64,000 bases of DNA from an uncultured Coriobacteriaceae bacterium (GTDB lineage Bacteria; Actinomycetota; Coriobacteriia; Coriobacteriales; Eggerthellaceae). Where the stretch lies: contig CACXMZ010000001.1 of NCBI GenBank assembly GCA_902768975.1, positions 62,001-126,000 on the forward strand, in the 5' to 3' direction. Every line of letters starts with the position of its first letter. The first letter of the stretch is position 1. Position numbers and translations under genes: made by a program. The notes beneath the pieces were generated by a model. The model was not told where the DNA came from. It ran no database searches and saw only the letters and a list, made by a program, of their open reading frames with translations. Shown here piece by piece: positions 5,258-43,053 of the stretch.

Positions 5258-6151
5258 CTAAAAGAGCCCCGCATACCACATGACCAGCTGCCGCCCGACC
5301 ACCATGGTAATAATGCATGCTGCAGCAATGGCAGGACCAAACACAATGGGCGCATGGCGCAGGTTCAGCTCCTCTGCTTCGCCCGTAAAGCCCACTTCTT
5401 CGAGGATGCTCGCGCGTTCTTCATGGGCCTTGAGTTCGCGCTGCTGCTTTACGAGGGCGGAAATTATGCCAATGAAGCAGGCGATCATAATTAAGAAAAG
5501 GCAGGCGCGCCACCCGAAGTACAAACCTGCCACAAAGAAAAGTTTGATGTCTCCCCCGCCCATGCTGTCGCGCCCGAGCACGCGGTCGGCAATAAGCACC
5601 ACGGCCAAAAGGGGCAACGCAATGGCAAAGGCACCAATGAGGGACTCAAGCGCCACGGCGGAGGCATCTATCTGACCAAGCACGGGGCCTGCCAGCACGA
5701 TATAGGCCACCCGCACCGCAATAGCAGCCAGGATGCAGGCGTCGGGAATGGTGCGCGAGTCAATGTCTACCAGCGAAGCGTAGAGCAGAATGGCCGCCAA
5801 AATGAGCCAATGAAGCGTATGAAGTGAAAAAGCTTCGCCCCACAGTACGTCTGCCACCACAATGGCAGCAAAGCTTATGCCCGCAACGAGTTCTACCAGG
5901 GGGTAGCGCGCCGAAAGGCCTGCCCCGCAGTGCGTGCACTTCCCCCCTTGAAGCAGCCAACTCAAAAGCGGGATGAGCTCCAATGCGCCGAGCGTCTGGC
6001 CGCAATGAGGGCAATGGCTGCGCCCCGTGAGCACACTTTCACCCGTTTCCCTGCGCAGTGCCGCACAGTTAACAAAGCTGCCAACACAGGCGCCAAGTAC
6101 AAAGGCTAAAAGCGCTGCTGGTACAAGAAATTGTGGGAGCACGTAGGGCAC
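5258..6151 (-). CDS. pilD: Prepilin peptidase (leader peptidase / N-methyltransferase)
   Basis: 297-residue polytopic protein of the A24A family. The N-terminal domain carries the four-cysteine site (CPHC and CTHC, residues ~47-75). The two catalytic aspartates lie in DIDSRTIPD and in GGGDIKLF. It cleaves class III signal peptides after Gly and methylates the new N-terminus, so it should process the GF(T)xxE pilins of this locus. The GTG start has only a weak Shine-Dalgarno. It lies beyond the pilA terminator and must rely on read-through or its own promoter. Confidence 0.95.
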   Translation of the reverse strand: MPYVLPQFLVPAALLAFVLGACVGSFVNCAALRRETGESVLTGRSHCPHCGQTLGALELIPLLSWLLQGGKCTHCGAGLSARYPLVELVAGISFAAIVVADVLWGEAFSLHTLHWLILAAILLYASLVDIDSRTIPDACILAAIAVRVAYIVLAGPVLGQIDASAVALESLIGAFAIALPLLAVVLIADRVLGRDSMGGGDIKLFFVAGLYFGWRACLFLIMIACFIGIISALVKQQRELKAHEERASILEEVGFTGEAEELNLRHAPIVFGPAIAAACIITMVVGRQLVMWYAGLF

Positions 6152-6176
6152 GACTATCTGGCTTCCTTTATAAAAA

Positions 6177-6200
6177 CGGGGCTTGGAAACCCAAGCCCCG
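6177..6200 (-). terminator. Terminator after the major pilin gene
   Basis: A perfect 10-bp stem (6177-6186 with 6191-6200) with an AAAC-type loop, followed on the minus strand by five T. It lies 23 bp past the pilA stop. It would let pilA be expressed at a level different from that of the downstream genes. Confidence 0.85.
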
Positions 6201-6222
6201 CACTCACTTCAAACGGGAAGGC

Positions 6223-6639
6223 CTAGCCTTCAGGGTATTCGTAACCCGCGCCGTTGTTGCCGTCGCTTTCAACGGTCACATGGGCGCCGTTGGTGTCGAA
6301 GAATTCAACATCTACCGCATGGGTGCGGTCCGAGAAGGTAAAGGCCTGGGAAGAACCGTCTTCGAAGAGCACGGTTACCTTATTGTCTTCATTAAGGCCC
6401 GAATAGGTTGACGTAATTTCATGGTTGGGATTGCTCATCCATTCGGCCTGAGCGAGTGCATACAGGGCGCGCGCGTTAGCTTTGTCGGCGCTGTCCTTCG
6501 CGTTGTCGAGCTGGGCGGCAAAAACAGGAATCGCAATAGCTACCAGTACCGCAATAATAGCGATAACAATGAGCAATTCCATGAGCGTAAAACCGCTGCT
6601 CTTGCGTTTAGCAATTTGTTCTTTCATTTGCTGAAGCAT
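6223..6639 (-). CDS. pilA: Major type IV pilin (small prepilin)
   Basis: 138 residues from the ATG at 6639, chosen over the ATG 18 nt upstream because AAAGGAG sits 7 nt before it. A basic leader ends SSG, followed by FTLMELLIVIAIIAVLVAIA: the prepilin peptidase site with Glu at +5 and a hydrophobic N-terminal helix. The C-terminal globular part is short and acidic, with no cysteine pair. A dedicated promoter and a strong terminator mark it as the abundant subunit. By family it polymerises into the pilus fibre. Confidence 0.92.
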   Translation of the reverse strand: MLQQMKEQIAKRKSSGFTLMELLIVIAIIAVLVAIAIPVFAAQLDNAKDSADKANARALYALAQAEWMSNPNHEITSTYSGLNEDNKVTVLFEDGSSQAFTFSDRTHAVDVEFFDTNGAHVTVESDGNNGAGYEYPEG

Positions 6640-6692
6640 AGGGCGCTCCTTTTCCAACCAACACGTAAGCTCTCTTGCTTCTACGAACTAAT

Positions 6693-6722
6693 AGTATACC
6701 TCTAACCTGCACTTTTATACAA
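6693..6722 (-). promoter_or_regulatory. Putative pilA promoter
   Basis: Minus strand: -35 TTGTAT (6717-6722), an 18-nt spacer, and -10 TATACT (6693-6698), 54 bp before the pilA ATG. It occupies the 103-bp gap between pilC and pilA. Confidence 0.55.
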
Positions 6723-6742
6723 TATGCCACTCAATTGTTCTT

Positions 6743-7954
6743 TTATGCCCCCATGCCTCCGTACATGGTAAACATGGGCAAATACACCGCTAGAAGGATA
6801 ACGCACACCACCACAGCCAAGACCACAATAATAATGGGCTCGAGCAGTGAAAGGGCACGCGTCGACGTCGTTTCAACTTCGTTGGCATAATAGTCCGCCA
6901 TAACGTCAAGCGTATGTTCCAAAGAACCCGTCTGTTCCCCGATGCCCGTCATTTCGACTACGAGTTCAGGGAAGGCCTCCGTTTTTGCCAGACTACTTGA
7001 AAGCTGCTTGCCCGCTTCAACGTCGACCTGGGTGGATGCCAAGCTTGAAGCCATATAGGCGTTCGACATAGACCGCGCGGTAACGTCTATGGCATTGGTA
7101 ACAGGCAGACCAGCCGCCATCATCATAGACATGGTGGATGCATACTGGTGAGCACCATTGCTTTCGGCAATTTTGCCCAACACGGGAATGGAAAGACCGA
7201 GCTTGCTCCAGCTTTCGCGGAAATCGGCATTCTTTTTTGCCACCTGGATAACGATGAGGGCGACCACGATAATGCCCAATACCAGGGGGAACCACGTTGC
7301 CCACCAGTTCGAACTATTCACGAGGAACTGGGTAATGGCAGGAAGTTCCATATGCATGGATTCAAAGGTACGCGCAAAGGCGGGCACGGCAAAAGCCATG
7401 ATGACCGCAATAACCAGCACGGCCAAAACGCAGATGAAGGCAGGATAAATAAGTGCCGTACGCGCCTTCGACTTTGCCTTGGCGGTGCGTTCGTAGTATT
7501 TCCCCATACGCGCAAACACTTCTTCGAGCGTACCCGAAGCTTCACCGGCGCGAACCGACTCAATAAAGGTTGAAGGCAGGTCTTTGCCATGCTTGGCAAA
7601 ACTGTCTGCAAGGCCGTAGCCAGCAGAAACGTCGCTTGCCACTTCGCCGAGAACCGCCTTGAGTGTTTTGTCGGAGGTTTGCCCCCCTACCAGTTCCAGA
7701 GTGCGCACGATAGGCATGCCCGCCTGCAAAATAATCGAAAACTGGTTGCACATGACCGAAAGCTCTTTGTCGCGCGTGCGGACGCCGCCCAAGCGCAGGT
7801 CTGCCCCACTTGCAGGCGCCGCTTCCTTGATGCTTTCAACGATTAGGCCGCCTTCACGCAGCTTTTCAACCGCCTCTTCGCTCGTATTGGCTTCAACAAC
7901 GCCTTCAACCTGGGCACCAGCAACCGAACGACCTTTATAGTTAAATGCTTTCAT
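6743..7954 (-). CDS. pilC: Type IV pilus platform protein PilC (GspF family)
   Basis: 403 residues with two GspF repeats (about 60-185 and 265-390), each bearing the hydrophobic segments of the inner-membrane platform that couples the ATPases to pilin insertion. It begins MKAFNYKG, typical of PilC; an in-frame GTG at 7969 is directly preceded by AGGAAAGG and cannot be excluded. It follows pilT closely, forming a pilB-pilT-pilC block. Confidence 0.95.
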   Translation of the reverse strand: MKAFNYKGRSVAGAQVEGVVEANTSEEAVEKLREGGLIVESIKEAAPASGADLRLGGVRTRDKELSVMCNQFSIILQAGMPIVRTLELVGGQTSDKTLKAVLGEVASDVSAGYGLADSFAKHGKDLPSTFIESVRAGEASGTLEEVFARMGKYYERTAKAKSKARTALIYPAFICVLAVLVIAVIMAFAVPAFARTFESMHMELPAITQFLVNSSNWWATWFPLVLGIIVVALIVIQVAKKNADFRESWSKLGLSIPVLGKIAESNGAHQYASTMSMMMAAGLPVTNAIDVTARSMSNAYMASSLASTQVDVEAGKQLSSSLAKTEAFPELVVEMTGIGEQTGSLEHTLDVMADYYANEVETTSTRALSLLEPIIIVVLAVVVCVILLAVYLPMFTMYGGMGA

Positions 7955-7975
7955 AAACGCCGAACACACCCTTTC

Positions 7976-9046
7976 CTAGTGAAGGCCACGCGAAACATAG
8001 TCGCGGTCGTGTGCTGCTTCCTGGGCCGTTGTTGCGCTTATTTGCCCGGCACGCACCATGCGAATAAGCATATTGTCGAAGGTGATAGAGCCTTCTTCGG
8101 CGCTCGTTGCAATGGTGTTGGCAATCTGGGGCGTCTTGCCTTCCCGGATAAGGTTGCGTATGGCGGGATTGACTACCATAAGTTCGCAAGCCAGGGCACG
8201 GCCCGGGCCTTCTTTGGCAGGAAGAAGCTGCTGCGTAAGCACCGCTTCGAGCGTGGTGGAAAGCTGCATGCGGATTTGTGGCTGGCGCTCTGCCGGGAAT
8301 ACCCCCACCAGTCGATCGATAGACTCAGCGGCCGAAGCCGTATGCAAGGTTGCAAATACCAAGTGGCCCGTTTCAGCTGCCGTCAGGGCAGCTTCAATGG
8401 TTTCGGTGTCGCGCATTTCACCAATGAGGATAATGTCGGGGTCCTGGCGTAACACAGAACGCAGGCCGCTCGCGAAAGAGATGGTGTCCTTCCCTACTTC
8501 GCGCTGGTCGATGCTGGCACGCGCGGGCTCATAGAGGTATTCAATAGGGTCTTCCAAGGTAACGATGTGCACGCTGCGTTCCTGGTTAATCTGGTTAAGA
8601 ACGGACGCGAGCGTCGTAGACTTGCCGCTGCCCGTTTCGCCCGTGACGAGCACAATGCCCCGCGTGAGGTGTGGGAATTCGAGCACCGCCGGTGGCAGGC
8701 CAAGGCTTGCCAGAGGCGGAATGCTGTCTGCGAGCAAGCGGATGGCCATGGCATAGTCGCCCTGTGCGCGGTAGATATTAATACGACAGCGCACGTCGGC
8801 AGCCGTCACCGCCAGGTCCACTTCGCCCTGTTCTTCCAGCTTGGCATAGGCGTCGCCAGAAATCTGGTGCGCAAGTGCGTCGATGGCGTCCGATGCCAAC
8901 GCGCCCGTTGCTACGTCGCCCAAGTCCTGCAGGGAGCCGTCGATGCGCACGCGGGGCAGACGCCCAGCGCTTAAGTGGATGTCGGTTGCACCCACGCTGT
9001 GCGCGGCGGCCACCAGTTTGTTGAGAAGCTGACTGTTCGAGCTCAC
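7976..9046 (-). CDS. pilT: Pilus retraction ATPase PilT
   Basis: 356-residue secretion ATPase. Walker A is GETGSGKSTT (residues ~136-145), the Walker B region is DPDIILIGEMRD, the His box is HLVFATLHT, and the C-terminal domain includes the PilT-typical AIRNLIREGK stretch. As a PilT it would depolymerise the pilus and drive twitching. The GTG start has AAGGGGG 8 nt upstream. It begins 11 nt after pilB. Its presence beside PilB indicates a retractable pilus. Confidence 0.95.
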   Translation of the reverse strand: MSSNSQLLNKLVAAAHSVGATDIHLSAGRLPRVRIDGSLQDLGDVATGALASDAIDALAHQISGDAYAKLEEQGEVDLAVTAADVRCRINIYRAQGDYAMAIRLLADSIPPLASLGLPPAVLEFPHLTRGIVLVTGETGSGKSTTLASVLNQINQERSVHIVTLEDPIEYLYEPARASIDQREVGKDTISFASGLRSVLRQDPDIILIGEMRDTETIEAALTAAETGHLVFATLHTASAAESIDRLVGVFPAERQPQIRMQLSTTLEAVLTQQLLPAKEGPGRALACELMVVNPAIRNLIREGKTPQIANTIATSAEEGSITFDNMLIRMVRAGQISATTAQEAAHDRDYVSRGLH

Positions 9047-12469: not shown

Positions 12470-15400
12470 CTACTCCCACCAGCTAAAGCCATAGTGGCAA
12501 TACGTTCCGTCAAAGTCGGTGCACACCAAGGGGTATGGGTAGCCCCATGAACCAGCCAAATGGCCTGGCGTTACGCGCACGTCGTAATAGAAGGCACTGC
12601 CATAGGTAAGCGCACTGCCATTGTTCACAAAGTCTGGACCCAAGGACGCATTCGCAAGTGCGCTCGGGCTGCAGGACGTAACCGCCGAAGGGCTGTCTTG
12701 GGCACCGGTGTTATTGCCGTCCCAGTCAAGGCGGTAGCAATTCGAAACACTACAGAGGCTTGAGTCGGCTATGTCGAAATGAGAGACGGTGTCGCCCGGC
12801 TGCGAAATAGTGCTGTCGGTGAACGCGTAGCCATAACAATTGCCCACGTTGCCCCCACCGCTATAGACCAAACCGGCAATGCCACCCTGGGCAAGTATGC
12901 GCCCTGAAGCGCTGCCCAGTGCTTGGCCGCACAGGGTATTTTCAACCGCATAGCTGCTGGTAATACTACCCTGCTGAATGCCGCCCGCAAGGCCACCCAC
13001 GCCCAGGCTCGCGCCCGCAGGGGCATTGGCTACCAGGTTAACCGTCGTATTTGCAGCGCTCGATCTTGCAATCGTGCCCGCGTTCAAACCAACCAGGCCA
13101 CCTGTAACCGCGTCGGAAATGGCCGCGGTGCCGTCCAGGTGAACCGTATAGCCTGCCACGCTTGAAGCAAGCACGGTGCCGCCGTCGAGCCAACCCACAA
13201 GAGCGCCCGTGGCAAGCGTGCCGCCCGGCACACCACCGCTGCGCACCACGTTGGCGCTATTCAGCGCAGAGGCCGCCAGGTGCACATTTTGGACCCAGCC
13301 AGAAACGCTTCCGAAAAGGCCAGCCGCTTCATGGCCTGTTGCCCACAAGTTGTAGTCGATAATGGCATGGCCTGCACCGTCGAAGGTGCCTGCAAAGGGT
13401 TCGTTCAAACGGCCTATGGGCTGGTTGCAATACGCGCCCGTACCCATTAAATCGATACCATGGCCCAAGTAGTTGTTGGTGTAATACGGGAAGTCGATGT
13501 CGTAGTACTGCACGATATGGGCATTCGGGGCCCAATAAGCGTGCTGGTAACCCAAGCGATTAAGGTGGCGAGCGGTACGAATGAAGAGCGCCGATGTGTC
13601 GGGTTCCGCTGCCACTTCTTCACCAAAGGCAGGGCTTGCCGAAAGCATGGCAAAGTCGGGGTTGTAGTAGTAGGTAAACTTTTGTGCCGCCGTACCAGCT
13701 GCGTCGGCAAAGGTCAGTTCGAGCGTGTCGAGGAAGGCGCTTGCTTCACGTTCGGGCATCTGCAGTTCGAAGGGAAGCTGATAGACAAAGACGTCGTCGA
13801 GCACCTGCATGCTATTGCCGTCAAAGTATTCAAGCGAAGAAATCTTTAGGTCTACGAAGTTACCCGCTGCCGGCGTTTCCGAAACCGTCAGGCGCTGAGT
13901 AGCTCCCCCATTAAACGAATATTCAAAACCACGAATCGGGAAGGTGGAAAGCAGCGCATAGCCGTCTTCGACGATATAGCGCGCACCATTAACCTGGTCG
14001 AGGGTGTCGATGGTGACATAACCCGTTTCGGTTTGGCCCGTGCCATAGATGCCATAGGTGTTGTCGCCATAGAGTTCGTAATACACCAAGATGGGATTAA
14101 GCGACATAGGCGCAGGCCAATTGCCCCAGTGTTCGTCGAGCACCGGGGTAAAGGGGAAGGCTTTGCCAAGCAGGGTTTCCTTATAGGGGAAGCTGTGGTC
14201 GGCCGCCAACTGCAAGCTGGCAAGGGCGCTGTACTTTTTCGCTTCAATGCCCGCTGGCTGGCTTGCGAGGTTTTCGTTATAGCCCGCTTCAACCAGGTAG
14301 GCACAGTTGGTAAATGACGCGCCACCTGCCCCAACGAAACCACCGCCTGCATCGCTATTGACGCGGCCGTAGGCAAAACTACCGTCGAACGAACCGCTCG
14401 CTTCACCAACGAAGCCACCAGCTGTACCTGCGGTATGAACGTCCGAAGTGCTATAGCAATTTGAGACGCCACCAGCAGAAAGGCTTCCCACCAGGCCGCC
14501 CACGTTGCCGGCGCCGTCTATTTCACCCGAAGCGTAGCTGTCATAGATTCTTGTGCCTGCAAAAGACCCGACGAGGCCGCCCACGCCTGTTGCTTGTGCA
14601 CCAAGCACGTTAATGGCGGCAAAGGACTTTGCAATATTGGAACCAGCATAGGCGCTGCCCACAAGGCCACCCACACCGTTTGCGGAATTCGACTGCACAA
14701 CATAGGTCGTGGGCTTACTCATGTCTTCGGCCGCGCGAACTTCGAGGCGCACCCCGCAGTTTTCCAGCTGGCCATACAGTTCACCCACCAGCGCACCGGT
14801 GGACCCACTGCCCGAAACCACTGGGTCAACCAGGAGCGTATTGCGTACCACTTGCCCACTTTGGACCGTGGCGAACAAACCCGTTGCACCCGTGCCTTCA
14901 ATGTAGAAGTTTTGCAGTTGATTATTGCGGCCGTCGAAGAACCAGCCTGCACCCGCCGTTGGCAGGGGTACAAAGCCTACTGCCCCGTCCACAACACGTG
15001 GGTCGAGGGGGTTAATATAGGCCACACCATAGTTTTCTTCGTTGTATTCTTTCGTAGCCTTGGACAATTCCGTTGTTTCGCCCTTGCCCCAGCTCGTGGC
15101 ATCGAAGTCGATGCGCGCGGTTTGCGTAACGGAAGGGGCGCTCCCGGGGAGCAGGCGCAGGTTATTCATATGGCGCACGTTGGCCACTTCAATAGCGCCA
15201 TTGGTATTCTTCGCATAGAGGCTGTTGGCCTTTGCCTGGCCGCGTTCGGCAGCAGGCGTCGAAATGGTTTCGCCATTACCAGTGTAGAGCACCTCGACTG
15301 TAGCCGAAAGGTCGGCGCCGGGTTCAAAGTCGAGGAACAGGTCGGCCAGGTGCAGGCCTTCGCGCATACTGTCGAGCAGGATGTCCACGTCCAGATTGCC

Positions 15401-16225
15401 GCTGGGACTGAGATGAAAGTCTTCCCCACCGCGATAGCTTACGGTCTTGCTTGCAGTTCCGTCGGAAAGCGTGAGCTTAACTTCCATGCCAGCTTCGTTG
15501 CCCACCAGGCCAATGCCACCCGCACATTCCACCTTCAGAAAGAGCTCTTCGCCATTTACCATGCTCACACGGGGGCTGAAATGGTCGGGAATTTCTGGGG
15601 CAGAAGCCGTCGTGCCGCAATAATAGCCAACGGGGAAACCATTGCCAGCGTCTTGGCGGTCCTGCCGTTCGCGCGAAGCAAGGCTCTGCACGTTTTCGTA
15701 GCCAAAGCTTGGATCTTCGGAATAGAAAACAGAATATACGTCGGTACCATCGGCGCGGGGGCTCACTTCAACAATGAAATGGCCTTTGCCGGTAAGGCCG
15801 TCAAGCACGGCCGTGCGCGCCATGACCTGGGCCAAGGCGTCGTCGGCGGCAGTTGCTGCCGGCTCCACGCCCGTGGCCTTGTTCTGTACATAGTAATAAT
15901 TCACCCAGGATTCGTCAGGGGCGTCCTGGGGCGCAGCACCAATGGTACCCAAGTTACGTTCTTGTGCGGCCGCCGCTAAAGTGCGATTGAACTGGGCATA
16001 TTCGCCCGAAGCCTCCATGGTAATGAACTGGTCTTGCAAGGCAACGTACATTTCCTTGGCGTAATTGTCCAGGCGATTCATTTCCATGGTGCGCGCAAGA
16101 GGTGCCAGGTTCGGTGCGGTAATAGCAACCATGACTGCCACAATAGCAATAACGACCAGCAGCTCCATAAGCGTGAAGCCGGCTCGAGTGCGACGAATAT
16201 GCTGCGTTTCTATACTCAAACCCAC
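12470..16225 (-). CDS. Giant prepilin-type surface protein with GLUG repeats
   Basis: 1251 residues. It starts with a class III leader, AG/FTLMELLVVIAIVAVMVAI (about 15-35), the same type as PilA, followed by a pilin-like helix. The rest is a large extracellular region. At about 440-650 and again at 960-1150 are repeated GxVGGLVG-type units (GLUG motif) that fold as beta-solenoid/adhesin-like repeats in other surface proteins. This suggests a tip-located adhesin mounted by the pilus machine. It is the first gene of the locus, with a GTG start, a weak Shine-Dalgarno and a plausible promoter at 16304-16333. Confidence 0.85.
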   Translation of the reverse strand: MGLSIETQHIRRTRAGFTLMELLVVIAIVAVMVAITAPNLAPLARTMEMNRLDNYAKEMYVALQDQFITMEASGEYAQFNRTLAAAAQERNLGTIGAAPQDAPDESWVNYYYVQNKATGVEPAATAADDALAQVMARTAVLDGLTGKGHFIVEVSPRADGTDVYSVFYSEDPSFGYENVQSLASRERQDRQDAGNGFPVGYYCGTTASAPEIPDHFSPRVSMVNGEELFLKVECAGGIGLVGNEAGMEVKLTLSDGTASKTVSYRGGEDFHLSPSGNLDVDILLDSMREGLHLADLFLDFEPGADLSATVEVLYTGNGETISTPAAERGQAKANSLYAKNTNGAIEVANVRHMNNLRLLPGSAPSVTQTARIDFDATSWGKGETTELSKATKEYNEENYGVAYINPLDPRVVDGAVGFVPLPTAGAGWFFDGRNNQLQNFYIEGTGATGLFATVQSGQVVRNTLLVDPVVSGSGSTGALVGELYGQLENCGVRLEVRAAEDMSKPTTYVVQSNSANGVGGLVGSAYAGSNIAKSFAAINVLGAQATGVGGLVGSFAGTRIYDSYASGEIDGAGNVGGLVGSLSAGGVSNCYSTSDVHTAGTAGGFVGEASGSFDGSFAYGRVNSDAGGGFVGAGGASFTNCAYLVEAGYNENLASQPAGIEAKKYSALASLQLAADHSFPYKETLLGKAFPFTPVLDEHWGNWPAPMSLNPILVYYELYGDNTYGIYGTGQTETGYVTIDTLDQVNGARYIVEDGYALLSTFPIRGFEYSFNGGATQRLTVSETPAAGNFVDLKISSLEYFDGNSMQVLDDVFVYQLPFELQMPEREASAFLDTLELTFADAAGTAAQKFTYYYNPDFAMLSASPAFGEEVAAEPDTSALFIRTARHLNRLGYQHAYWAPNAHIVQYYDIDFPYYTNNYLGHGIDLMGTGAYCNQPIGRLNEPFAGTFDGAGHAIIDYNLWATGHEAAGLFGSVSGWVQNVHLAASALNSANVVRSGGVPGGTLATGALVGWLDGGTVLASSVAGYTVHLDGTAAISDAVTGGLVGLNAGTIARSSAANTTVNLVANAPAGASLGVGGLAGGIQQGSITSSYAVENTLCGQALGSASGRILAQGGIAGLVYSGGGNVGNCYGYAFTDSTISQPGDTVSHFDIADSSLCSVSNCYRLDWDGNNTGAQDSPSAVTSCSPSALANASLGPDFVNNGSALTYGSAFYYDVRVTPGHLAGSWGYPYPLVCTDFDGTYCHYGFSWWE

Positions 16226-37986: not shown

Positions 37987-38046
37987 TATAATAAAGTGTT
38001 GTGCGTAAGTACCGCATTATCTGCGGTTTTAGGCCTATGCGTAAGT
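37987..38046 (+). promoter_or_regulatory. Promoter and leader of the second filament-like operon
   Basis: GGGTATAAT with -10 TATAAT at 37987-37992. The ~90-nt leader then has a small hairpin (38011-38016/38022-38027) followed by four T, resembling a weak attenuator, and the octamer GCGTAAGT twice (38003-38010 and 38039-38046). Confidence 0.45.
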
Positions 38047-38091: not shown

Positions 38092-39057
38092 ATGAACTTT
38101 GCAGTTTCACGGCTGCGCACACTCGTATGCGCTCTGACGCTTGCGGTCTTGCTGCTTGGCATGCTTGCGGCCTGTTCGAATAGCCCCGCGCCTGGCCCCG
38201 CTACCCAGCCCACCGAAAATGAAACGCCCACGACCAGTGGCGTAGGGGGCGGCGCTTTTGCAGGGCACTTCACGCCCGCCGCCTTCGACAAGTCTGCCGC
38301 TACAAGCGACGGCGTCAACTATCTGGACCTTTCACACACGGCCGAAGGCTATATTGCCGCAGCGGCCACCAACGAAAACAGGCTTAAACTCCAGGTCAGC
38401 ATGGGTGAAATGAGCTATAACTACGACCTTCCCGGCACGGGTGAGCCCATTATTGTGCCCGTAAACATGGGTGACGGAAACTACACGGCGCGCATCATGC
38501 AAAACACCACGGAAGACCGCTACATTGAACTGTTCGCCGCTACTACTAACGTAACGCTCGAAAACGAATTCGCCCCCTACATACGCCCCAATATGTTCTG
38601 TAACTACACGGAAAACAGCGCGTGCGTAAAGCTTGCCAACGAACTGTGCACGGGCGTAGCGGACGAAGGCGCTGCTTTTGACGCGGTCTACGACTACATT
38701 ACGAACAATATCAGCTACGACTTTGCCAAAGCAGACAAATTGGCAAGCGTAACGGGCTACGTCCCCAACCCCGACGAAACCTTAAGCAGCGGTTCGGGCA
38801 TTTGTTTCGACTATGCGTCACTTACCGCAGCCATGCTGCGCAGTCAGGGAATTCCTACGAAGATACTCACGGGCTACGTTTCTCCCGACAATGTCTACCA
38901 TGCTTGGGATATGATATACATTAACGGTTCATGGTCTACGCTGCATATTAGTGCTCAGCCAGGCCAATGGGCTCGCGCCGACATGACTTTTGCAGCCAAT
39001 GGCGCAGACGAGGTAATAGGCGACGCTTCAGCGTACGCAGATCGATATACGTATTAG
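38092..39057 (+). CDS. Transglutaminase-like lipoprotein
   Basis: 321 residues. The N-terminus has a lipoprotein signal ending LLAAC (Cys ~27), so the protein is lipid-anchored outside the membrane. After a Pro/Thr linker and a beta-rich region comes a transglutaminase-like fold: GSGICFDYASLTAAMLR with the putative catalytic Cys (~240), NVYHAWDMIYINGSW with His and Asp. It may be a protease or crosslinker of surface proteins. No good Shine-Dalgarno precedes the ATG, which I chose because it immediately precedes the signal peptide. It is 16 nt before the GspF gene, so it is probably part of that operon. Confidence 0.8.
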   Translation: MNFAVSRLRTLVCALTLAVLLLGMLAACSNSPAPGPATQPTENETPTTSGVGGGAFAGHFTPAAFDKSAATSDGVNYLDLSHTAEGYIAAAATNENRLKLQVSMGEMSYNYDLPGTGEPIIVPVNMGDGNYTARIMQNTTEDRYIELFAATTNVTLENEFAPYIRPNMFCNYTENSACVKLANELCTGVADEGAAFDAVYDYITNNISYDFAKADKLASVTGYVPNPDETLSSGSGICFDYASLTAAMLRSQGIPTKILTGYVSPDNVYHAWDMIYINGSWSTLHISAQPGQWARADMTFAANGADEVIGDASAYADRYTY

Positions 39058-39073
39058 TGTAGGAGGAAGAGTA

Positions 39074-40126
39074 GTGGCACGTAAGAACATGGAAAGCGGT
39101 GCAGTCAGCGTATTCTGCGAAAGTATTGCAGTCATGCTTGCCGCCGGCATCCAAACTGAAGACGCCCTGGGCCTTCTTTCGGAAAATACCAACGACGCGG
39201 CCTTCCAAGGCACCTGCGACGGTGTTTATCGCGGGCTTATTGAACAAAAACCCTTGGCCGACGCCATGGAAGCAACGGGCACCTTCCCCGCCTTCGCCAT
39301 AGACATGGTACGCACGGGTGAAAACTCGGGCCGGCTGGAGTCGACGCTTTCTTCGCTCGCGCGCTACTACAACGAAGAGGACCGTCTTATCTCCAAGCTG
39401 CACTCATCTATTGTCTACCCGGTGGCGCTCTTTGCCCTCATGAGCGTTATCCTGCTCTTTACCTTGCTCGTGATTATTCCCATCTTTATGGACACCTATC
39501 AAAAAGTGTCCGGCGGTTTGGGCACGGGCCCCTACACCTTTGTGGCTGCTTCCATTGTTATTGGCTGGATTGCCTTTATCTTTGCGCTACTTGGCACCAT
39601 ATTCACCTTTGTGCTTGCGAACATGACGCGCACGCAAAAGAACCTGCGTGGCCTCGAGCGCATGCTAGAAAAGCTGCCATTCACCAGCGAAGCCGCCAAG
39701 CAGCTCGCACTTTCTCGTTTCACCAGCGTGCTTACGTCCTACGCTGCCATCGGCGCACCGAATGACGTAGCGCTTGAAGAAGCCACGAAAACGGTAGACA
39801 GCCCACAGCTGCGCGCCAAGCTGGACGCAGCGGTGGCGCAAATGCAAGACCCCGCTAACCCCAAGTCGCTTTCGCGTGCCTTGGGCGACAACGACATTTA
39901 CGGCCCGGTGTACACGCGCATGATGACCGTGGGCGACACCAGCGGCAACCTGGAAGAAGTGTTGGACTCCATGAGTAACACCTTCTTCGAAGACGCGCTT
40001 ATTCAAATGGACGAATCCATGGACCGCATTGAACCGGCGCTCGCAGCATTCCTGACCATTACCGTGGGTGCCACCCTTATTGCGGTTATGGTGCCACTCA
40101 TTGGCATTCTGGGATCGATTGGCTAA
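39074..40126 (+). CDS. GspF/PilC-like platform protein of the second filament system
   Basis: 350 residues, GTG start with AGGAGG 8 nt upstream. Two GspF-type repeats (about 10-140 and 195-330) are present, with membrane helices near 110-135, 150-180 and 325-350. It lacks the ~60-residue N-terminal cytoplasmic extension of the PilC at 6743. It would be the inner-membrane platform for the ATPase at 41977. The order transglutaminase, GspF, four small one-span proteins, ATPase is compact, with mostly overlapping genes. Confidence 0.9.
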   Translation: MARKNMESGAVSVFCESIAVMLAAGIQTEDALGLLSENTNDAAFQGTCDGVYRGLIEQKPLADAMEATGTFPAFAIDMVRTGENSGRLESTLSSLARYYNEEDRLISKLHSSIVYPVALFALMSVILLFTLLVIIPIFMDTYQKVSGGLGTGPYTFVAASIVIGWIAFIFALLGTIFTFVLANMTRTQKNLRGLERMLEKLPFTSEAAKQLALSRFTSVLTSYAAIGAPNDVALEEATKTVDSPQLRAKLDAAVAQMQDPANPKSLSRALGDNDIYGPVYTRMMTVGDTSGNLEEVLDSMSNTFFEDALIQMDESMDRIEPALAAFLTITVGATLIAVMVPLIGILGSIG

Positions 40127-40153
40127 GGGCGAACCGGACGAAAGTAAGGACCT

Positions 40154-40480
40154 ATGTATCATCCGCAATCGACAGACCAGATTCGCCGCCGCCAGCAAAG
40201 CTGGGTGCGCCTGCTCATCGTAGTTGCCGTTGGCATACTCGTTTGCGCGCTCGTACTCATTGGCGCGCGCGGTGCCATTCGCGAACAGGGCGCCCTTTCC
40301 ATGCGCACGGCCATTCTGGAACATGCCAAGCAATGCTGCGCGGTGGAAGGTGCCTACCCGAAGTCCATTAGCTACTTGGTCGACCATTATGGCCTGGTCA
40401 TAAACGACAAAGACTACGTTATTACCTACGACTGTTACGCGGACAATGTTGTACCCAGTGTGGTGGTGGTGCCTAAGTGA
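40154..40480 (+). CDS. Small pilin-like protein, first of four
   Basis: 108 residues: a basic N-terminus, one hydrophobic helix (~20-40) and a short exposed domain containing EHAKQCCAVEGAYPKSISYL and two further conserved features (DYVITYDCYADN). There is no Gly/Phe prepilin peptidase site and no Glu+5. The EGAYPxSxxYL motif looks like one I associate with uncharacterised proteins of similar loci in Firmicutes (recollection, not searched). Likely a filament-like subunit; function unknown. It overlaps the next gene by 4 nt. Confidence 0.7.
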   Translation: MYHPQSTDQIRRRQQSWVRLLIVVAVGILVCALVLIGARGAIREQGALSMRTAILEHAKQCCAVEGAYPKSISYLVDHYGLVINDKDYVITYDCYADNVVPSVVVVPK

Positions 40481-41031
40481 ACGGCAATGCGGTACAAGTT
40501 TCTTTAACGCGTCTGCGCGAATACGAACGCGGGCATAGCCGCAATTACTTTGTGCTTTTCGAAATTGCGCTCTTCATTATTATTATCGGCCTCCTTATGG
40601 TGACGCTGGGTGCGGGCGTGAATGTGTATCGCAATATTTCCGACCAGCGCTGGGCCGACGAACAGAACCGCACAGGTCTCACCCTTATTGCAAACAGCGT
40701 GCACATCACCGACACTATCGACGCGGTGGGCGTTGGCGTGGGCCCCGAAGGCCAGTCGCTCGTGCTTACCGAACGTTTTTCAACGGGCGCTTACGAGACG
40801 CGCATCTATTTGTACCAGGGTAACGTCGTGGAAGAATATGCCCTCGCGGGCACTCCTTACACGCCTGAACGCGCTACCCCACTCGTGCAAAGCGATACTT
40901 TCTCGTTTTCTTACGCCGACAATTTGCTGACCGTAAACACTGAACGCGGCGTCCAAAACATTATGCTCCATAGCGTGCGTAAGGCAGGTGCCAGCGCGAG
41001 TGCGGAAGGCGGTGAAGCCAGTGGCCAATAA
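40477..41031 (+). CDS. Pilin-like protein with Glu+5-like helix (DUF4860-like)
   Basis: 184 residues. After a 23-residue basic leader comes Y/FVLFEIALFIIIIGLLMVTL: aligned as a pilin, Glu is at +5 of the helix, but -1 is Tyr rather than Gly, so classical prepilin cleavage is not expected. A beta-rich exposed domain (about 60-160) and an Ala/Ser/Gly-rich tail follow. GTG start overlapping the previous stop (GTGA). Confidence 0.7.
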   Translation: MNGNAVQVSLTRLREYERGHSRNYFVLFEIALFIIIIGLLMVTLGAGVNVYRNISDQRWADEQNRTGLTLIANSVHITDTIDAVGVGVGPEGQSLVLTERFSTGAYETRIYLYQGNVVEEYALAGTPYTPERATPLVQSDTFSFSYADNLLTVNTERGVQNIMLHSVRKAGASASAEGGEASGQ

Positions 41032-41491
41032 CAACACGACTTCACTGACCGTAAGGCGTGGGCTCGCCCCCAGCGTCAACGCAAGCAACCGCGCTTTTGT
41101 GGTAGAGGCCCTGATTTTGCTCGCATTCCTCGCAGCTGCGGTGGCCATTATCTTGCAACTCTTTGCTGCCGCAGGAGTACAAAGCCGCGAAGCGCATAAG
41201 CTTACCTTGTCGGAACATCTTGCCACCAACACCGCCGAAAGCTTCGGCGCCAACCCCAAGAACGTTCCTTCGATTGTCTATTACGACGCAGAAGGCAACC
41301 CGCTCGAATACGAAAAGGGTGCGGTCTATTCGGTCGAAACGACCATTACGCCGCAGCGCATGGAAGCGGGCACCCTCTACACCGCCGACATCGTGGTTAC
41401 CAACTACGAACTACGTTACGACGGCAACGTAACCTATGAATTGCAAACTAAACGCTACCTTTCCGCCCTGGAAGGTGGTGGTTCGCAATGA
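41021..41491 (+). CDS. Pilin-like protein with Glu+5-like helix
   Basis: 156 residues from the GTG at 41021, with GGAAGGCGG upstream; it overlaps the previous gene by 11 bp. An N-terminal basic segment ends NR/AFVVEALILLAFLAAAVAI, with Glu at +5 but Arg at -1 instead of Gly. The exposed region (about 55-150) is beta-rich with Thr/Tyr-rich strands. Translation of the next gene is coupled (ATGA overlap). Role inferred from context. Confidence 0.7.
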   Translation: MANNNTTSLTVRRGLAPSVNASNRAFVVEALILLAFLAAAVAIILQLFAAAGVQSREAHKLTLSEHLATNTAESFGANPKNVPSIVYYDAEGNPLEYEKGAVYSVETTITPQRMEAGTLYTADIVVTNYELRYDGNVTYELQTKRYLSALEGGGSQ

Positions 41492-41949
41492 GCTTGCGTT
41501 CAAACGAAACCGTCATTCGCATGGGGCCCATTACCGTTATTGCCTTGCTCATTGTTATAGCGCTGGCAACCCTGGGCGTGCTTTCACTTACAACGGCGCG
41601 CGCTTCCAACGTGGCCGCTTCCAAACAGGACGCCTCCATCCAGGCTCTCTATGAAAACGAAAGAGCCGCCCAAGAATTCCTCGCGGAAGTCGACGCGGCG
41701 CTTGTCCCTGCACGCAATAATGTGCTCGATGCAAAAGGGGCAGTAAAAACCATACGGCAGGCTGGTCTTTTGGCCGACGCCGAAGTGGACGGCACCACGA
41801 TTTCAAAGAGCTTTGCAAACGACGTCCGCAAGCTCAACGTTATTCTGGTTATCCGTGACGACCTAAACTACCAGGTGATTTCCTGGAAAACCGAATCGAC
41901 AATCGACACGACTGAAGAAGTCGAACTGTGGCAAGGTAACAACGCTTAA
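41488..41949 (+). CDS. Small one-span protein of the filament-like operon
   Basis: 153 residues: a short basic leader, one membrane helix (GPITVIALLIVIALATLGVL, ~13-32), then an Ala/Glu-rich helix and a small beta domain with KLNVILVIRDDLNYQVISW. No Glu+5 and no prepilin peptidase site, although a Gly precedes the helix. Possibly a minor subunit or assembly factor. 27 bp before the ATPase gene. Confidence 0.65.
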   Translation: MSLRSNETVIRMGPITVIALLIVIALATLGVLSLTTARASNVAASKQDASIQALYENERAAQEFLAEVDAALVPARNNVLDAKGAVKTIRQAGLLADAEVDGTTISKSFANDVRKLNVILVIRDDLNYQVISWKTESTIDTTEEVELWQGNNA

Positions 41950-41976
41950 AATAAGCGTAAGGGAATAGGAGCAATT

Positions 41977-43053
41977 ATGGACATCAAGACACTGCTAGGA
42001 AAAATGGTGGAGGTTGAAGCTTCCGACATCTTCATCATTGCTGGTCTGCCGCTTTCCTACGCCATTGGGCGCAGGCAGATTCGCACCGACACGGCGCCGC
42101 TCAAGCCCGCCGACACGAAGGCGCTCGTAGACGCCATCTATGCAGTTTCGGGGCGCGACGTGAAGATCTTCGAAGACAACAAGAATCACGACGACGACTT
42201 CAGCTTCAGTATTCCAGGCCTCGGCCGTTTCCGTGCGAACATCTTCCGCCAGCGCGGTTCCTATTCTGCGGTTATCCGCGTTATTCCCTTCGGTCTGCCC
42301 TCACCCACGGACTTGCACATTCCGCATGCCGTTATGCAATGCGCCGACCTGAAGAAGGGTCTCGTGCTGGTTACTGGGCCTTCGGGCGCAGGTAAGTCCA
42401 CCACGCTCGCCTGCCTGATCGACCGCGTAAACAAAACACGTACGGGCCACATTATTACGATGGAAGACCCGATTGAATACGTGCACCACCATGAAAAGTG
42501 CATCGTGACGCAGCGCGAAATTCCCACCGACGTAGCTACCTATTCCGAAGCGCTTTCGTCCGCCCTGCGTGAAAACCCCGACATCTTGCTCCTCGGCGAA
42601 ATGCGTACCCTCGACACCATTTCAACGGCGGTTTCCGCTTCTGAAATGGCACAGCTCGTATTCTCTACCCTGCATACCATTGGTGCTTCGTCCACCATCG
42701 ACCGCATTATCGACACCTACCCCGCTGCCCAGCAGCACCAGGCGCGCCTGCAGCTTTCCATGACGCTGCAAGCCATTATTTCGCAGCAGCTTATTCCCAC
42801 AGCCGACGGCCAGGGCACGGTTCCTGCCTTCGAAATCATGCTGTGCAACGCGGCTATTCGCAACCTTATTCGTTCGGAAAAGACGCACCAGCTCGACAGC
42901 GCTATTGCCGCAGGCACGGCCCAGGGCATGTGCACCATGGACCAGAGCCTGTTCGATTTGTGTAAGGCAGGTACCATTAGCAAGGAAGCTGCCCTGCAGC
43001 ATTCCAGCCACCAGGAAGCACTCGTACGTCGCTTCGAAGTTGAAGGGATTTAG
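41977..43053 (+). CDS. PilT-like ATPase, sole motor of the second filament system
   Basis: 358 residues. Walker A GPSGAGKSTT (~133), Walker B DILLLGEMRTLDTI, His box QLVFSTLHT, and the C-terminal PilT-like AIRNLIRSEK stretch. The N-terminal domain is PilT-like and short; there is no MshEN domain and no four-cysteine zinc site, so it is not a PilB. Family members are usually retraction motors, but no extension motor is encoded in this operon, so this one may drive assembly. It ends the operon, followed by a terminator. Confidence 0.9.
   Translation: MDIKTLLGKMVEVEASDIFIIAGLPLSYAIGRRQIRTDTAPLKPADTKALVDAIYAVSGRDVKIFEDNKNHDDDFSFSIPGLGRFRANIFRQRGSYSAVIRVIPFGLPSPTDLHIPHAVMQCADLKKGLVLVTGPSGAGKSTTLACLIDRVNKTRTGHIITMEDPIEYVHHHEKCIVTQREIPTDVATYSEALSSALRENPDILLLGEMRTLDTISTAVSASEMAQLVFSTLHTIGASSTIDRIIDTYPAAQQHQARLQLSMTLQAIISQQLIPTADGQGTVPAFEIMLCNAAIRNLIRSEKTHQLDSAIAAGTAQGMCTMDQSLFDLCKAGTISKEAALQHSSHQEALVRRFEVEGI

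Follow-up and report, generated by a model that had tools for sequence, protein, structure and literature searches.

A PilT-only operon in Coriobacteriia and Bacillota: a candidate autonomous machine derived from type IV filaments

The DNA analysed here (the window) is a 64,000-nucleotide stretch from an uncultured Coriobacteriaceae bacterium (GenBank assembly GCA_902768975.1, contig CACXMZ010000001.1, positions 62,001 to 126,000). Inspection of its open reading frames (ORFs) showed that seven tightly packed genes, all on the plus strand, occupy positions 38092-43053. They encode a transglutaminase-like lipoprotein (TG), a platform protein (GspF), four small proteins (s3 to s6) and a PilT-family motor (PilT2). 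By its motor and platform the operon belongs to the type IV filament superfamily, and it fails the defining features that we tested for the type IVa pilus, the competence (Com) pilus and the type II secretion system (T2SS). We give an even chance to the reading that it is an autonomous machine derived from type IV filaments, in which PilT2 turns GspF and works a short, tip-like pseudopilus with a surface cysteine enzyme. The uncertainty in this reading lies mostly in whether the structure is a stub or a fibre, and in its function.

Results

The motor of the operon and the motors of its carriers

PilT2 (41977..43053, plus strand) matched the T2SSE family at 1.4e-32. It scored 384 bits with the TIGR01420 pilT_fam model (cut-off 319), 113 bits with ComGA (cut-off 300) and 102 bits with GspE (cut-off 630), and with the PilB model it stayed far below that model's own cut-off. 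In the alignment, PilT2 retains its catalytic motifs as well as AIRNLIR, a motif of PilT. In the maximum-likelihood tree, all PilB proteins formed one group (100/100), and 43 operon PilTs formed one clade (100/96) within PilT. Judged by score, motifs and grouping with PilT rather than PilB, the assignment of PilT2 to the PilT/PilU family is firm. No PilMNO was found among the seven genes or their conserved neighbours. An earlier note on this DNA, made from the letters alone, had proposed a second type IV filament-like operon with a PilT-family motor only, and the TIGR01420 score together with the lack of PilB and PilMNO in the locus bears this out. In most Coriobacteriia copies of PilT2 the His box reads MAQL(V/L)FSTLHT, with Gln in place of its first His, although the ATPase is intact in other respects; canonical PilT and the Bacillota copies read GHLV or GQLV.

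As the earlier note had allowed, a PilB encoded elsewhere in the genome might still serve the operon. We searched the carrier genomes for T2SSE-family motors with PF00437; PilB scores about 370-460 bits where it is present, and its absence can therefore be read. No PilB was found by this search in 13 of 21 Coriobacteriia carriers that are at least 90% complete (one of the 13 is a single contig) or in 12 of 17 Bacillota carriers. These 13 Coriobacteriia carriers encode PilT2 along with a Tad motor. In six Bacillota genomes (G060, G065, G268, G279, G372 and G457) the operon PilT was the sole real T2SSE-family member found. We therefore rejected the view that a PilB elsewhere must serve the operon, and the PilT-only description stands.

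Prepilin peptidase (Peptidase_A24) is present in most carrier genomes. Among the six genomes with a sole PilT, some of them drafts, no match above the cut-off was found in five (G060, G065, G268, G372 and G457). Weak Peptidase_A24 matches in G372 and G268 (E 0.13-0.15) were set aside, and the one inspected, in G372, is an ABC permease. No other T2SSF protein was found in G060 and G065.

The small proteins s3 to s6

Searches of Pfam, NCBIfam and the Protein Data Bank (PDB) with the sequences of s3, s5 and s6 found no convincing family, and the profile check proposed in the earlier note thus named only s4, as DUF4860. The pilin signal in these proteins comes from structure, conserved motifs and a homologous locus in Bacillota.

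The product of s3 (40154..40480, plus strand) is a small single-span protein with 11 invariant columns and a predicted pilin-like fold. The AlphaFold2 (AF2) model, with a predicted local distance difference test (pLDDT) score of 90.9, combines a long helix at the N-terminus with a small helix and a sheet of two strands. Its top two Foldseek matches were type IV pilins, 6xxd (probability 0.89) and 4d40 (probability 0.57), at E-values of at least 0.5, which are not significant. No class III signal peptide was found in s3 of any relative.

The s4 gene (40477..41031, plus strand) encodes a DUF4860 (PF16152) protein (4.9e-19), a putative GspJ/PilW-like minor pilin, and the DUF4860 model matched 29 of 29 aligned s4 members. 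Its AF2 model (pLDDT 88.0) has a long helix and eight strands, and among the Foldseek matches listed those with the highest probability were the GspJ-type pseudopilins EpsJ (0.93) and XcpW (0.89), with E-values that are not significant.

In s5 (40988..41491, plus strand), a pilin-like protein, the Glu at the pilin +5 position (AFVVE) is kept in all 43 loci, and Gly or Ala at -1 occurs only in a minority of them (L067 was read by eye). Comparison by hhalign with canonical pilin N-termini gave 84%. Translation of s5 probably starts at the GTG at 41021 and not at 40988, because the later start fits the relatives better. The s6 gene (41488..41949, plus strand) encodes a GspK/PilX-like single-span protein, in which G13 is invariant in 29 sequences and lies ahead of the membrane span, as in GspK/PilX; the profile support for s6 is weak.

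The homologous locus, L098 from the Bacillota genome G255, has clearer motifs. Its s4 begins GYTLVE and still matches DUF4860 at 1.3e-14, its s5 reads GFTLVE with an N_methyl match of 3.7e-6, and its s6 reads KGAAS; its s3, as in the other relatives, has no class III signal. A bifunctional prepilin peptidase is encoded within the L098 operon itself, together with TG and PilT, and no PilB was found in G255. Taken together, fold predictions and motifs identify s3-s6 as degenerate, divergent members of the pilin superfamily, and because L098 bridges them to canonical motifs the set very probably derives from ordinary minor pilins. The individual proteins may correspond to GspG/H, J, I or K. L098 may represent the ancestral form, with canonical prepilin motifs and its own peptidase and still without PilB. 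The earlier note had reported no classical pilin; this is literally right, but the fold, Glu5 and the L098 motifs place s3-s6 as divergent relatives of pilins.

Conservation and distribution

Loci were compared by iterated profile searches around the hits, and Bacillota genomes were sampled with a completeness filter of 90 (398 genomes). DUF4860 (s4) was found in 26 of 60 relatives and in 13 of the 398 Bacillota genomes, one of the 13 falling under the family cut-off. A PilT-based search extended the carriers to Oscillospiraceae, Sinanaerobacter and Christensenella. The operon is thus common in Coriobacteriia and scattered in Bacillota, and its carriers include gut Coriobacteria and Clostridia.

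Across the two groups, about 42 distinct loci contain the set GspF-s3-s4-s5-s6. Nearly all have the order GspF-s3-s4-s5-s6-PilT, with TG upstream or at most a few kb away, and the synteny search suggested earlier yielded dozens of loci. By counts of homologous clusters, GspF, s3 and s4 each occur in 42 loci, while PilT occurs in 41 and TG in 37. Between the window and one same-genus relative, dN/dS was 0.011 for PilT2, 0.04 for GspF and 0.09-0.14 for the remaining genes; these values are rough because dS is near saturation, and they indicate purifying selection on every gene of the operon. The operon is real and not a chance arrangement, because its order recurs in dozens of genomes and dN/dS is low for every gene.

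Several loci depart from the common form. L100 (G354, 6004-8766) has GspF and s3-s6 without a PilT gene, and the PF00437 search found no T2SSE ATPase in the whole genome; this would be either a motor-less version or a locus whose motor lies on missing sequence. L134 and L090 (G196, contig C18) have GspF-s3-s4-s5-s6 and TG with no PilT in the locus; the contig does carry, about 40 kb from there, a PilT gene that is sister to the operon clade with weak support. L133 (G006, contig C8, 6528-7562) is an orphan PilT2 of the operon clade, with no GspF, s3-s6 or TG nearby and no DUF4860 match in the genome.

The surface enzyme, the platform and the neighbouring genes

The TG gene (38092..39057, plus strand) encodes a predicted secreted lipoprotein of the transglutaminase/cysteine-protease fold, with a lipobox (LAAC) near residue 29. 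A Transglut_core match of 1.5e-19 and a Cys-His-Asp triad, with C238, H270 and D297 invariant in 26 relatives, place it in the transglutaminase-like superfamily, and its closest solved relative is 3isr (4.2e-13). TG may cleave or cross-link proteins at the surface, as the earlier note had proposed. The GspF/PilC-type platform protein is encoded at 39074..40126 on the plus strand (T2SSF 1.1e-38). Five Bacillota loci (L037, L038, L039, L040 and L091, of which L039 is from the culturable carrier Sinanaerobacter chloroacetimidivorans) have a sortase gene immediately before TG or GspF, reading the same way, as well as a BTAD-domain regulator alongside; in all, seven loci have a BTAD-type transcription regulator next to the operon. 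This neighbourhood suggests that the machine acts with cell-wall anchoring; the constant TG and the sortase thus point to work on surface proteins.

Operon boundaries and the main pilus locus

The intergenic gaps in the operon are 16, 27 and 27 bp, and 4-bp overlaps join s3 to s4 and s5 to s6. The ORFs, gaps of at most 27 bp and profile matches confirm the seven contiguous plus-strand genes, their families and the single operon of the earlier note. Promoter-like and terminator-like sites were not in excess of shuffled sequence, and no Rfam element was found. A perfect TATAAT at 37987-37992 precedes the start of TG by about 100 bp, and the promoter scan paired no -35 box with it.

Both this operon and a complete type IVa pilus locus at 2.9-16.2 kb (PilO, N, M, D, A, C, T and B with minor pilins) were found in the window, and the two are separate, as had been claimed. 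The window genome also has a Tad-type motor. In the main pilus locus, 12470-16225 on the minus strand encodes a 1251-aa protein with an N-terminal canonical prepilin motif (RAGFTLMELLVVIAIVAV), a giant modular pilin that is probably a tip adhesin.

Discussion

From the observed parts, their order, conservation and distribution, we infer how the motor might move, how long the pilus might be and what it might do. PilT2 would dock on GspF and rotate it. The proteins s4, s5 and s6 would form a GspJ-I-K-like tip complex seated on GspF, and s3 would serve as an anchor or base subunit resembling a pilin. Most lineages have lost the cleavage residue from s5, and s3 never has one; the usual extraction into a fibre would therefore be barred, and s3-s6 may remain membrane-anchored as a short, tip-only stub pseudopilus with no long fibre. 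PilT2 alone would drive the stroke of this stub: it would work in both directions, or it would power only the disassembly of a stub that assembles by itself. The stub would position or activate TG, together with the sortase in some Clostridia, with TG as the surface effector; most likely, on this gene content, the machine modifies, anchors or releases surface proteins.

Several points weigh against this proposal. The Foldseek E-values for s3 and s4 and the profile support for s6 fall short of significance or are weak. The L098 PilT lies outside the main operon clade, elsewhere within PilT; therefore either the operon exchanged its motor or PilT-only operons had more than one origin, and L098 may reflect convergence or a motor swap and not the ancestral form. 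Drafts make up several of the key genomes, G065 being visibly fragmented, and most carriers retain a Tad motor or a prepilin peptidase that could help in trans. The surface-protein role is drawn from gene neighbourhood only, and the contact of TG with the machine, the stub and the motor direction are presumed.

The same evidence bears on other explanations. The operon could be an accessory module of the main type IV or Tad pilus, providing extra minor pilins, a second platform and a PilU-like second retraction motor while borrowing PilB or TadA and the peptidase. The full type IVa pilus and Tad-type motor of the window genome, the presence of PilT2 or the operon in 9 of 9 well-covered relatives with PilB, and Peptidase_A24 in most carriers agree with this, but the operon brings its own platform and pilins and also exists in PilB-less carriers, six of them without any other family motor; we regard such a module as unlikely. 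A similarly improbable reading is a divergent Com pseudopilus pulling DNA to ComEC, with PilT2 replacing ComGA. It would account for the comG-like content (one motor, one platform and 4-5 pilin-like proteins) and for ComEC in nearly all carriers; however, ComEC is equally frequent in operon-less relatives and was not found in the carriers G065 and G255, the ComGA model gives 113 bits against a cut-off of 300, a single weak ComGE match (E 0.18) appeared among 30 s5 proteins, and TG and sortase have no DNA-uptake role.

We see only a slim chance that the operon is a small type II-like secretion piston exporting TG or another surface enzyme. Its pilin-like set resembles the GspH-K pseudopilins and an exoenzyme gene constantly adjoins it, yet the carriers are monoderm lineages, the locus has no GspC, D, L or M, and the GspE model gives 102 bits against 630; moreover, TG has its own Sec/lipoprotein signal and therefore needs no piston for export. 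The loss of cleavage motifs and the partial forms, such as the orphan PilT2 in G006 and the missing motor in G354, could also suggest that the operon is a relic, left by a type IV pilus locus in decay. Against decay stand strong purifying selection, intact ATPase motifs and catalytic residues, and a gene order kept across two phyla; the relic reading was rejected on the purifying selection of all genes, and we consider it very improbable.

According to a recent review, every type 4 filament system contains a pilin, a prepilin peptidase, an extension ATPase and a platform, which probably form the minimal machine (PMC10191384). The PilT-only operon calls into question the rule that no such machine can do without an extension motor and a peptidase that processes pilins. 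Through it, one can test whether a PilT hexamer can run both ways, a proposal based on the conformations of PilT (PMC6858323), and whether unprocessed pilins can function. The operon further points to a role for DUF4860, and to one for a surface enzyme of the transglutaminase fold that is conserved in common gut bacteria.

Comparison with known systems

A motor (PF00437), a platform (PF00482) and pilin-like proteins in one locus place the operon in the type IV filament superfamily. In the open-access literature searched we found no described PilT-only locus and no paper naming DUF4860, and no named system matched; on this point, too, the earlier note holds. One large survey puts minimal loci in a 'generic' class (PMC6668835), and an earlier survey mentions that pilT occurs in pil operons of Gram-positive bacteria and that there are tad-like loci in which prepilin motifs are not evident (PMC3244431).

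With the type IVa pilus the operon shares a GspF/PilC platform, a motor of the PilT-family retraction branch and pilin-like proteins; it differs in that the locus lacks PilB, PilMNO and a major pilin with a class III signal, and that some carriers are PilB-free. Gly or Ala is the last residue of the leader peptide in such systems (PMC10191384), and no operon protein was found to be a Gly(-1)/Glu(+5) major pilin, s3 having no signal in all relatives and s5 having Glu5 with mostly no Gly or Ala at -1. The Com pilus has the same minimal plan in monoderms, with one motor, one platform, a few small pilins and no PilMNO, but the operon has a PilT-type motor instead of ComGA, another gene order and a TG lipoprotein, the peptidase is often absent, and no ComGC family match, which would mark a ComGC-like major pilin, was found among its proteins. 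The resemblance to the type II secretion tip (GspH-I-J-K) consists of the GspJ-like s4 and the GspI-like and GspK-like N-termini of s5 and s6 in L098, whereas the locus lacks GspE, C, D, L and M, its motifs are degenerate and its motor is PilT. DUF4860 itself is a family without a described function, and here it appears as a GspJ-like pilin in a PilT-only operon. The Tad (type IVc) pilus differs in using TadA rather than a PilT-family motor, TadB and TadC rather than one GspF, and an Flp pilin, which the operon lacks; it resembles the operon in that one motor serves the whole system, and CpaF is reported to drive both extension and retraction (PMC11300603).

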